Assembly: GCF_014696385.1 (NCBI RefSeq)
Contig: NZ_JACJQB010000001.1
Span: 62,001-126,000 of the forward strand
DNA length: 64,000 nucleotides
Source of the DNA: Pseudanabaena mucicola FACHB-723
GTDB lineage: Bacteria > Cyanobacteriota > Cyanobacteriia > Pseudanabaenales > Pseudanabaenaceae
Direction of reading: 5' to 3'
Shown here: piece after piece, positions 16,877 through 22,776 of the stretch
Layout of the letters: every line of letters begins with the position of its first letter
Numbering within the stretch: the stretch's first letter is position 1
Program-made: the position numbers and the translations under genes
Notes under the pieces: generated by a model
What the model saw: the letters and a program-made list of their open reading frames with translations, nothing else
What the model was told of the DNA's origin: nothing
The model's database searches: none

Positions 16877-17140
16877 ATGAGTCAAGAGCTTGTCTACCAA
16901 ACGATCAGCAAATTTCAAGATAAGCTGCTTGATCTTTCGGCTAGGAATAAGCTCTTAAATTTTAAATTTTCAGAAAAAGCGCGTACAGATTCGGGTTGTT
17001 AATGATGCGCCAGATCGGATTTACAAACGTCTAAATGAGGGAAAAAAGATGGGCTTGCAAACTTTGCCTGAGCCAGTTAGATGATGCGCGTACATCTATT
17101 CAGCAAGCGGGACAAAATACGCTTTATCTGACATGTGCGA
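16877..17140 (+). pseudogene. frameshifted remnant of a DUF4011-type helicase gene
   Basis: ATG at 16877 opens MSQELVYQTISKFQDKLLDL, SARNKLLNFKFSEKAR and then stops. The next frame continues with QIRVVNDAPDRIYKRLNEGK and MGLQTLPEPV. A third frame has ARTSIQQAGQNTLYLT. Together these follow the N-terminal order of DUF4011 proteins ('kLLDLs.rNkLLnf', 'iv...p..iy..L..g', 'a.t.ieEqGvNtLyLa'), which normally are large helicase/nuclease proteins often found in defence islands. At least two frameshifts and a deletion are needed, and the rest of the gene is gone. It marks the left edge of the accessory island. Confidence 0.7.
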
Positions 17141-18866: not shown

Positions 18867-19127
18867 CTATATCCTTTTCGATAAACTTAAAATATCCATC
18901 TCAGACTTACTAGGATAAATCTTTATATAAGCATCTTTAAAATCATATATTCCAGTCAAATCACCTATTTCAATTTCTGGTTCACCTTTAAAAAAAGACA
19001 GATAAAAAACCTCTTCCGATAAATCAGTCTCTAGTCCAACATCTCCTGAAATTGATCTACGAGTTTCAATGCTCATCTTCAAATTACCATCATCAGTCCA
19101 AGCAGTAGCAATGTGGTTATTATCCAT
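18867..19127 (-). CDS. small protein of unknown function (86 aa)
   Basis: An acidic 86-residue protein, MDNNHIATAWTDDGNLKMSI then LSFFKGEPEIEIGDLTGIYDF. I do not recognise the family, and no signal peptide or membrane helix is visible. It lies divergent from the large helicase gene, with 268 bp between them. It could be a companion of the helicase or a leftover of the island. Confidence 0.4.
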   Translation of the reverse strand: MDNNHIATAWTDDGNLKMSIETRRSISGDVGLETDLSEEVFYLSFFKGEPEIEIGDLTGIYDFKDAYIKIYPSKSEMDILSLSKRI

Positions 19128-19395: not shown

Positions 19396-22300
19396 ATGTC
19401 AAAAGCTATGATAAACAGCCTGATCGATGAAATAAATTCACTACTTAGCCGCCCAGTCGGATCAGTAACGGAGAAAGTATCTCTGGATATAGCTCATCCT
19501 AGAGATCAGCTAAAGCGTTTGAGATCTCATCTTGAAAAACTTACTGAGGATAAACACTTAAATAATTTAGATCAGCAATATCAGGGTTTGGTAGCACATT
19601 TACAAGAAAAAATTTCCATAAATCGCCAGACATCTCATAATATTAGTACAGAATCAAAAAAATTAGAAATATTGCCACCTACAACAATTAAATCAGAAGC
19701 TAGTCACTTATTTGGCGATACATTTGACTTGAATTTAGTGACTAACAAAATTGCTGTGATTGAAAAAGACTCCACATTTTTGAATGATTGCATGATTACT
19801 CCGTGCCAGCAGTTAATGAATACAAAAATTGAAACAGTACAAGATTTTTACAAAACAATAGTAGGCTATGAAGAATCGTGGGAATTGCTAACTGGCAGAG
19901 AGGTTAAACGTATTAAACCGCGAGTATTGAGAGCAAGTGGTGATATGGTCTTAATTGACGAAGAAGGCTGTAAAACTCAAAAATTTGAATATATTAATTG
20001 GAAAATTAAACGTATAACTGTATTAAGTAAAAGAATTTTCATTGCAGTTGCTTATTCAGGATATGAGCCTATAGCTAAAAACATAATAACTCATCATCAA
20101 AAGAGAATTAGCATAGATGAAGCCGAATATAAAAAAGATGAGTTTGTTAATCTCTTTAAAGAGATATATCCACCTATTACATTGGATGAAATTAATTCAT
20201 ATAAGCAGAAAAAAGATCTTCTAATTGAGCAGATACAAAATACTTTAAGGGAAGATTATATACGTACAGACAAATTTTACGAATTAAACTATAAATTATA
20301 TGTCAAAGTACATGTCCATCAGTTTGAATATAGAGATATAAAGCAAAACTTTATTCAATCTTGGACTGAGGCAAACATAAAAAATAAGCCTGACCTAGAA
20401 CAATCTTTAGCAATTGGCTCAGTTAATAGTCATGTTCAATTAATTGCGAGGGCTGGCAGCGGCAAAACATCCACATTAGTTAATCGCGCAATATTTTTAC
20501 AAAAACACTGCGGTATTAAACCATCTGAAATCTTACTATTAGCATTTAATAGAAAAGCTGCTCACGAAATTAGAGAAAGATTACAAAAACATTTACAGAA
20601 TGATCTGCCCTATGTCATGACATTTCATGCACTGGCTTATCACTTAGTTCATCCTGATGAAACGCTAATTTTTGATGAGCCAGATGGTCAACAAACAAAA
20701 AGCCGTAGCTTGCAAAGTGTAATTGATGAATACATCAGAAATCCAAATTATTCTGAACAGATTAAATCTCTAATGATTGCTAAATTCAGAAAAGTTTGGA
20801 TAAGGATTGCCGAGGGTGGATATGATTTAACGCCAGAAGAAATGATCGAATATAGACGTTCGTTACCACAAGTCGGTATTGACGGCTATAACTATAAATC
20901 TGGAGGGGAAAAGATCATAGCAGATTTTCTATTTGAGCATAACATTCCATTTAAATATGAAAAAAACTTTTGGTGGAGAGGTGTTAATTATCATCCTGAC
21001 TTTACGGTTTTAAAAGAAGTCAATGGTAAAAAAGGCATTGTAATCGAATATTTTGGACTGCAAGGCGATCCCAACTATGATGAACAATCACAACAAAAGC
21101 GATATTATTGGGAAGAAGAACAGTCTGATTATTTGTTTATTGAATTAAACCCAGCAATTCTAAAACCACACGGACGAGAAGGAATGGAAAACCATTTGCG
21201 CGAACTTCTCACAGGTTTAGGTCTTGAATTGAATCGTCTCAGCACTCCAGAAATCTGGGAAAGGGTTAAAGACCGTGTCATAGATGACTTTACTAAATCT
21301 ATGACCAATTTTATCGGGCGTTGTCGTAAACAATGCCTGACTCCTGATCAACTGAGTGAAAAAATTGAGCGTTATTTCAAATCTAATCCTCAAACAAGCG
21401 AACCAGAGTTTCAATTTTTGGATTTAGCCCAGAATTTTTATATCTCCTACTTGGATCGCCTCCAACAAACAGGCGAAGAAGACTTTGATGGGCTGATGCA
21501 AAGAGCCGCAAAAGTTGTAGACGAAGGCAATACCGTATTTTTGAGCAGCAAATTTCGAGGAGACTTGAAAGAGCTTAAATACATCATGATTGATGAATAT
21601 CAAGACTTTTCTTTGCTTTTTCATAACCTCATTACAGCCATCAGAAAACAAAATCCCGAAGCTCTGTTTTTCTGCGTTGGTGACGATTGGCAAGCCATCA
21701 ATGGCTTTGCTGGTGCAGACTTGCACTATTACAACAACTTTACCCAAATATTCACACCATCACACACCTTACCGATCACCACCAATTACCGATCAGGTTC
21801 GCAAATTGTGGAAATCGGTAATCAGTTGATGACCGATAAAGGCATACCCGCCAAGTCATCTACGCAATTACAAGGCAAAATTCAGCTTGTGAACATCGCG
21901 AAATTTCAAATGACAGCGATCGAAGAAGAAGAACATGGCTATGACTTGACTGCCGCGATTATTCGCCTAATAGGTCAACTCATCCAAGAAGGGAAACAAG
22001 TTGCTCTACTCAGCAAGAAAAATACTTTGCAAGGCGTGGATAGACAAATCAAAGAACTGGATAAATTTCGCAAATATATTCTCAAAAAACTTAATTTAGT
22101 TGGAGAGCTAGAACAACTCATCGAAATTTCCACAACCCATAAATACAAAGGCAAAGAACGACAAGCAGTAATTATTCTTGATGCTTATAACTATCCCACT
22201 ATTCATCCTAGTTCAATCTTTTTCCGTATTTTTGGTGACAATGAAAATAAATTAATTGCAGACGATCGCCGCCTGTTTTATGTTGCCCTCACCCGTGCCA

Positions 22301-22776
22301 AAGAAGAGTTATACCTAGTCGTAGATAGTTTCAAAATGTCACCATTCGTTGCAGGCTTAACCAGCAAAATGCAACTGCAAGAGCTAGATTGGAAAGATTA
22401 TCCAGTTGTCACCATAGAAACTCGATTTATTACCGTCAAAGTCACTAACCAACAAGGACGCGGGAAAAATCCTACTATTGCGATTAAAGAGCTTTTGAAA
22501 TCTGAAGGATACAAATACAATGGCACATCAATATCTTGGAATAAGGTGGAACCAGTCCAGAAATTCCTAGCCGATGGCTCAAGATTGCAATATTTAAGCG
22601 ATCGCAATTGGAGTTCTCAAGCTAACGGTATCGAAGTGAATTTTTGTAATGAGCAGGAAGAAGTTATATCTTCGTATCTAGCCAATAATGGCAAATGGAC
22701 TTGTAGTTTCGATAACTTCAAGCAATCAAAAATAGATGAACCAGACATAACTAACTATGATGAAATCCCATTCTGA
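19396..22776 (+). CDS. UvrD/Rep-like SF1 helicase with PD-(D/E)XK-like insert and SSB-like tail
   Basis: A 1126-residue protein. Residues 1-340 are a unique region with a possible coiled coil (about 30-90). The motor has motif I ARAGSGKTST (Lys357), AFNRKAAHEIRERL, a GQQTKS region, motif II MIDEYQDFS (Asp733, Glu734), motif III VGDDWQAINGFAGAD, NYRSG, TTHKYKGKERQAV, and motif VI FYVALTRAKEELYLV. Between motif Ia and II lies a likely restriction-endonuclease fold: GGEKIIADFL (Glu505), NYHPDFTVL (Asp535), IVIEYFG (Glu551) and a later Lys. The C-terminus ends NYDEIPF, close to the SSB tail DYDDIPF. ATG at 19396 has the upstream AGGGGG. It lacks HIP1 sites and sits among toxin-antitoxin genes, so recent transfer is likely. 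A defence or repair role is inferred. Confidence 0.85.
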   Translation: MSKAMINSLIDEINSLLSRPVGSVTEKVSLDIAHPRDQLKRLRSHLEKLTEDKHLNNLDQQYQGLVAHLQEKISINRQTSHNISTESKKLEILPPTTIKSEASHLFGDTFDLNLVTNKIAVIEKDSTFLNDCMITPCQQLMNTKIETVQDFYKTIVGYEESWELLTGREVKRIKPRVLRASGDMVLIDEEGCKTQKFEYINWKIKRITVLSKRIFIAVAYSGYEPIAKNIITHHQKRISIDEAEYKKDEFVNLFKEIYPPITLDEINSYKQKKDLLIEQIQNTLREDYIRTDKFYELNYKLYVKVHVHQFEYRDIKQNFIQSWTEANIKNKPDLEQSLAIGSVNSHVQLIARAGSGKTSTLVNRAIFLQKHCGIKPSEILLLAFNRKAAHEIRERLQKHLQNDLPYVMTFHALAYHLVHPDETLIFDEPDGQQTKSRSLQSVIDEYIRNPNYSEQIKSLMIAKFRKVWIRIAEGGYDLTPEEMIEYRRSLPQVGIDGYNYKSGGEKIIADFLFEHNIPFKYEKNFWWRGVNYHPDFTVLKEVNGKKGIVIEYFGLQGDPNYDEQSQQKRYYWEEEQSDYLFIELNPAILKPHGREGMENHLRELLTGLGLELNRLSTPEIWERVKDRVIDDFTKSMTNFIGRCRKQCLTPDQLSEKIERYFKSNPQTSEPEFQFLDLAQNFYISYLDRLQQTGEEDFDGLMQRAAKVVDEGNTVFLSSKFRGDLKELKYIMIDEYQDFSLLFHNLITAIRKQNPEALFFCVGDDWQAINGFAGADLHYYNNFTQIFTPSHTLPITTNYRSGSQIVEIGNQLMTDKGIPAKSSTQLQGKIQLVNIAKFQMTAIEEEEHGYDLTAAIIRLIGQLIQEGKQVALLSKKNTLQGVDRQIKELDKFRKYILKKLNLVGELEQLIEISTTHKYKGKERQAVIILDAYNYPTIHPSSIFFRIFGDNENKLIADDRRLFYVALTRAKEELYLVVDSFKMSPFVAGLTSKMQLQELDWKDYPVVTIETRFITVKVTNQQGRGKNPTIAIKELLKSEGYKYNGTSISWNKVEPVQKFLADGSRLQYLSDRNWSSQANGIEVNFCNEQEEVISSYLANNGKWTCSFDNFKQSKIDEPDITNYDEIPF

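Follow-up and report, generated by a model that had tools for sequence, protein, structure and literature searches.

An SF1 helicase of Pseudanabaena mucicola FACHB-723 with a putative nuclease insert and a C-terminal end resembling that of SSB

Background

A 64,000-nucleotide stretch of the Pseudanabaena mucicola FACHB-723 genome, here called the window (contig NZ_JACJQB010000001.1, positions 62,001 to 126,000), encodes a large helicase whose last residues nearly repeat those of an SSB encoded in the same window. The question is whether the helicase carries a working duplicate of the SSB C-terminal tail (SSB-Ct), and what such a copy would do. SSB is a hub: through this one short peptide, some 20 proteins of repair and replication are recruited in bacteria. 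A helicase with its own SSB-Ct copy, if the reading is true, would gain entry to the SSB hub without SSB, which bears on the control of partner choice, on the hijacking of repair by defence or selfish elements, and on the targeting of the SSB-Ct pocket by drugs; moreover, members of the class can be searched for by a simple rule, a [DE][DE]IPF-stop ending outside the SSBs. An SSB-Ct-like end on a helicase was not found described in a survey of the open-access literature, which extended to few subscription papers and preprints.

Results and discussion

The C-terminal ends of the helicase and of the SSB

The helicase is encoded on the plus strand (19396-22776) by an ORF of 1126 amino acids, the final residues of which are KIDEPDITNYDEIPF, followed by the stop; the ORF, Pfam and NCBIfam matches, the homologue alignment and a structural model identify it as an SF1 helicase of UvrD/helicase-IV-like type with a putative nuclease insert and an SSB-Ct-like tip. 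The tip, YDEIPF (residues 1121-1126; 22756-22773, plus strand), is followed directly by a TGA stop codon. The window SSB is encoded at 460-918 on the minus strand, a strand that the preliminary description did not give; it is a 152-residue protein of the MNSIVLMAE type that matches PF00436 at 62 bits and has the C-terminus DAPDYDDIPF, the codons of its YDDIPF tip lying at 463-480. Translation of both ORFs bears out the earlier observation of five identities among the seven C-terminal residues (NYDEIPF in the helicase, DYDDIPF in the SSB). Pfam gives no SSB match (PF00436 or OB fold) in the helicase.

The host genome encodes two PF00436 proteins, the second of which, on contig 2, ends in YDDDF without Ile-Pro-Phe. 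A pattern search recovered an MNSIVLMAE-type SSB with a DIPF end in 24 of 26 Pseudanabaena genomes; the window SSB thus represents the DIPF-type SSB normally found in Pseudanabaena.

Domain architecture of the helicase

The SF1 motor occupies residues 335-992 (20398-22371, plus strand), with a Walker A motif GSGKT at residues 354-358 and a motif II DEYQD at residues 733-737, both of which are invariant across the 43 homologues aligned. Pfam recognizes UvrD motor domains (PF00580, 138 bits), and comparison of the helicase model with known structures matches it to UvrD of D. radiodurans with a Z score of 34.8 over 437 residues (rmsd 3.0), UvrD/PcrA structures in general being matched at Z of about 34. 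The motor is the same SF1A motor as that of DNA helicase IV (NF008276/PRK11054) and of UvrD, PcrA and Rep, to which the window helicase adds the PD-(D/E)XK insert, further domains at both termini, and the tail. Helicase IV is the best NCBIfam profile, at 202 bits, far under its equivalog cut-off of 543 bits, and identity with DNA helicase IV was accordingly rejected. Among the defence UvrD helicases covered by PADLOC, the profiles of Gabija GajB resemble the motor (144 bits) and the DRT helicase profiles also match it. The window helicase differs from GajB in having a nuclease fused within the helicase and in possessing the SSB-like tail, and no GajA-like gene is present among the flanking genes scanned by Pfam, so that identity with GajB was likewise rejected.

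The insert in the motor spans approximately residues 495-600 (20878-21195, plus strand). The PADLOC profile PDC-S68 matches residues 495-575; E505, P534-D535, E551 and K568/R569 are kept in at least 90% of the 43 homologues, in the pattern typical of PD-(D/E)XK nucleases; and the modelled strands and helices fit the alpha/beta core of that fold. Conserved residues and model together make it probable that the insert is a PD-(D/E)XK-type nuclease and that the enzyme, as predicted, cuts DNA.

The N-terminal region (residues 1-148; 19396-19839, plus strand) is mostly modelled with low confidence and is swappable, the N-termini of family members being of the 148-residue type found in the window, of a TPR type, or of other types. 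About the same 148 residues also begin a protein of approximately 1700-1900 residues (L002) encoded in nearly all Pseudanabaena genomes, in the first 668 residues of which Pfam detects no domain.

A folded C-terminal domain (approximately residues 1006-1107; 22411-22716, plus strand) is found family-wide and is the end point of most homologues; modelled by itself it is predicted with high confidence, and Foldseek finds no match to it in the PDB at E <= 0.001. Beyond it lies a disordered, lineage-specific linker (residues 1108-1120; 22717-22755, plus strand). In the AlphaFold2 model, built with 43 sequences (mean pLDDT 80.7), the fold stops near residue 1107 and pLDDT lies below 50 over residues 1112-1126, indicating that the tail is exposed and flexible; its tether of 11-14 residues has a pLDDT below 50 to 60. 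The model shows no docked position for the tail, a result still compatible with weak docking.

Distribution and genomic context

Of the 26 Pseudanabaena genomes, 7 carry the helicase family, in several unrelated places on the chromosome; a relative is located on an Anabaena plasmid. This patchy distribution over scattered loci, together with the swappable N-termini and the nuclease insert, marks an accessory gene; on its distribution and domains, the helicase is probably horizontally mobile, with a role in defence or in a mobile element. An anti-invader role is possibly what it performs, being compatible with the patchy distribution and the nuclease domain. The genes flanking it in the window, as identified by Pfam, are hisD, small toxin-antitoxin-like genes (DUF433/DUF5615 and DUF2283), an HNH gene and a proA-like gene, with no known defence partner gene adjoining the helicase. 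Searches of phage and viral contigs for the helicase itself returned distant or partial matches only.

A small divergent gene upstream (18867-19127, minus strand) encodes 86 amino acids with no Pfam match. Its homologues lie upstream of the helicase at three other loci (L158, L162 and L165), making four with the window, and the gene is a possible functional partner of the helicase. Elsewhere in the window, a short ORF on the plus strand (16877-17002, MSQELVYQTISKFQDKLLDLSARNKLLNF...) resembles, by eye, a remnant of a large DUF4011-type helicase.

Gain and conservation of the tail

The suggestion that the DEIPF end would be conserved and terminal in homologues was examined in the alignment of 43 sequences; L006 and L101, having incomplete C-termini, were left out of the tail counts both for and against. 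It holds for all seven intact members of one Pseudanabaena clade and fails for the family. Most homologues, including those of Nostocales, Microcystis, Poribacteria and Chloroflexota, end at or shortly after the folded C-terminal domain and have no tail, which rules out family-wide conservation; a sister homologue in Pseudanabaena UWO311 (L083/L102, with a contig gap between the two halves) also lacks it, its C-terminus being LDVQNLSS. The tail-less homologues, a family majority to which the intact sister L102 is added, were weighed against a docking function.

In the Pseudanabaena clade, the tail is a disordered extension of 15-18 residues, in which a linker of 11-14 residues and variable sequence precedes the tip. 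The seven tips are YDEIPF, YDEFPF, DDDIPF (twice), YGDIPF, YTDVPF and YYDIPF: all seven end in Pro-Phe-stop, with Pro and Phe codons that vary synonymously only; an Ile-type residue stands third from the end and an acid fourth (EIPF, EFPF, DIPF, DVPF); and YD, DDDD or EYDY occurs further upstream. The pN/pS ratio, calculated from few sites, falls from 0.41-0.48 in the adjacent codons to 0.21 over the final four codons and to 0 over the final two. Codon comparison thus indicates that the tail is kept by selection, under a constraint stronger than that on the adjacent codons, albeit over few sites.

Conservation of the tail within Pseudanabaena counts as a single origin. On the helicase-core tree, two changes account for the scored rows: a gain in the Pseudanabaena clade and a gain in a Myxococcota homologue (L025) with the C-terminus VIDGDIPF. 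An Akkermansiaceae homologue outside this tree (L036), in which the helicase is combined with a HIRAN domain, ends in ELDDDLPF, and the SSBs of the L025 and L036 hosts both end in DDDIPF. From these sequences, the similar ends of the Myxococcota and Akkermansiaceae proteins are judged to be of separate origin. A Trichocoleus homologue (L009) ends in FDDILF, the proline being missing.

Rarity of the ending

The DNA pattern GANGANNTNCCNTTYTRR, which encodes [DE][DE]-hydrophobic-Pro-Phe-stop, has three matches in the whole 3.96-Mb genome: the window SSB, the helicase, and a 263-residue ORF ending in NEYDDIPF. A search of 377 cyanobacterial genomes for YDEIPF-stop gave this helicase, two SSBs and nothing else. 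Among 2066 ORFs of at least 100 amino acids at the loci of the homologues, 18 (8 of them distinct) end in [DE][ILVFM]PF, and all are helicases of this family. The background rate of the ending, roughly estimated from about 7 other long ORFs in some 115,000 Pseudanabaena genes, is approximately 6e-5 per gene, and with this rough rate three independent origins of the tail among 43 family members have a probability of about 3e-9. The C-terminal match of the helicase to the SSB is more than chance.

Possible functions of the tail

Like the SSB-Ct of E. coli (MDFDDDIPF), the helicase tail has a terminal Ile-Pro-Phe, preceding acids, and a disordered tether of sufficient length; it differs in being placed on a putative helicase-nuclease without an OB domain and in being present once per polypeptide, whereas an SSB tetramer has four. 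SSB-tail mimicry is thus well supported at the level of sequence. The earlier proposal that the helicase imitates the SSB tail therefore stands in so far as the sequence features match those of the SSB-Ct and the gains are independent, and does not stand as a feature of the helicase family. On balance, we lean towards the reading that this helicase-nuclease has acquired a functional SSB C-terminal docking peptide, which would recruit or divert host proteins that bind the SSB tail.

Partners of E. coli SSB bury the terminal Phe, grip its carboxylate with basic residues and touch the Asp residues; deletion of the Phe, or replacement of the Pro by Ser, abolishes or weakens binding; and a minimum SSB linker of 11-20 residues is needed in vivo (PMC10164576), a range within which the helicase tether of 11-14 residues falls. 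By this route, the terminal Phe of the helicase, with its free carboxylate, and the acids would insert into the SSB-Ct pocket of at least one SSB-interacting protein of the host, candidates being of the RecO, RecQ, RecG, PriA or RecJ type. The helicase would then bring its partner to the DNA being unwound or cut, with no need of SSB, or, alternatively, would keep the partner away from SSB at that DNA.

Searches by family found PriA, RecO and RecG encoded in the host genome. Host PriA can be aligned to solved structures, and sequence comparison links host RecO to no solved RecO. In host RecG, Leu and Glu align to R474 and R614 of E. coli RecG, arginines known to bind SSB, which are thus not position-matched in the host protein.

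A tail that fills SSB-Ct pockets could instead act, as also suggested earlier, as a competitive decoy, blocking SSB-dependent repair or restart on target DNA. Competition with SSB would be inevitable for an identical peptide, SSB partners are inhibited in vitro by small molecules and by peptides that mimic the SSB-Ct (PMC10143822), and the phage proteins that share the tail are plausible hijackers; however, a single tail on a large and presumably scarce enzyme would be unlikely to beat abundant tetrameric SSB in solution, yet would be able to act locally on DNA. For this reason we regard recruitment in cis as likelier than blocking, and consider the decoy unlikely.

Self-regulation, in which the acidic tail folds onto the DNA-binding surface of its own helicase or bridges protomers and is freed on activation, would be in keeping with the frequency of auto-inhibition among acidic disordered tails, with the ability of the SSB-Ct to bind its own OB fold (PMC8509808), and with the undocked tail of the model if docking is weak. 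It would explain neither the exact retention of [DE][IVF]PF despite the varying acidity of the linker nor the same ending on unrelated folds, and is improbable. A neutral extension, fixed once through loss of a stop codon in the Pseudanabaena clade, could account for the absence of the tail from most homologues and for seven members that represent one origin, but is most improbable given how rare the ending is, how much more constrained the last codons are, and that the tail arose independently twice more.

The same ending on other proteins

A search for YDEIPF-TGA matched 29 viral contigs (L181-L209). The viral ORFs with this ending include members of primase (AEP-TOTE), 3'-5' exonuclease, T4-type RNA ligase and small cysteine-rich (phrog_23504) families, as well as a protein distantly resembling SSB. 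That other accessory or phage proteins acting on DNA end in the same way raises the likelihood that the ending has a general role. It is conceivable, and we propose it only tentatively, that SSB-tail mimicry constitutes a module that recurs in, and can be transferred among, the DNA enzymes of conflict and mobile elements, whereby unrelated bacterial and phage helicases, methyltransferases, primases and nucleases independently gain a C-terminal [DE][DE]IPF that would join them to the host SSB interactome; the docking peptide would then let the present helicase-nuclease take over or disable repair factors at the DNA of invaders.

Several other bacterial proteins have similar ends. A 624-residue NERD-UvrD helicase of another Pseudanabaena (L149:1512-3386, minus strand; G304) has the C-terminus PEYDEIPF; it too combines an SF1 helicase with a nuclease-related domain, in an architecture unrelated to that of the window helicase. 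Its relative on a plasmid of Annamia dubia (L166:5571-7532) ends without the tail. A search of 292 sampled cyanobacterial genomes with a threshold of E <= 1e-60 gave no relatives, a negative of no informative value. Prophage-like proteins of Pseudanabaena (L154:1422-3440, minus strand; L143; L115), one of which bears a Dam methyltransferase domain, have in common a small C-terminal domain that ends in Y(T)D[DE]IPF or FDDIPF, and another protein of the genus, with DuOB and WD40 domains (L145:1376-3067; G298), has the C-terminus NNNYDDIPF. In the host itself, a protein of 258-263 residues from no known family (contig 50, L153:3690-4463) ends in NEYDDIPF; its ORF, the third and last with such an ending in the host genome, is immediately followed by a DUF2726 (nuclease-like) gene.
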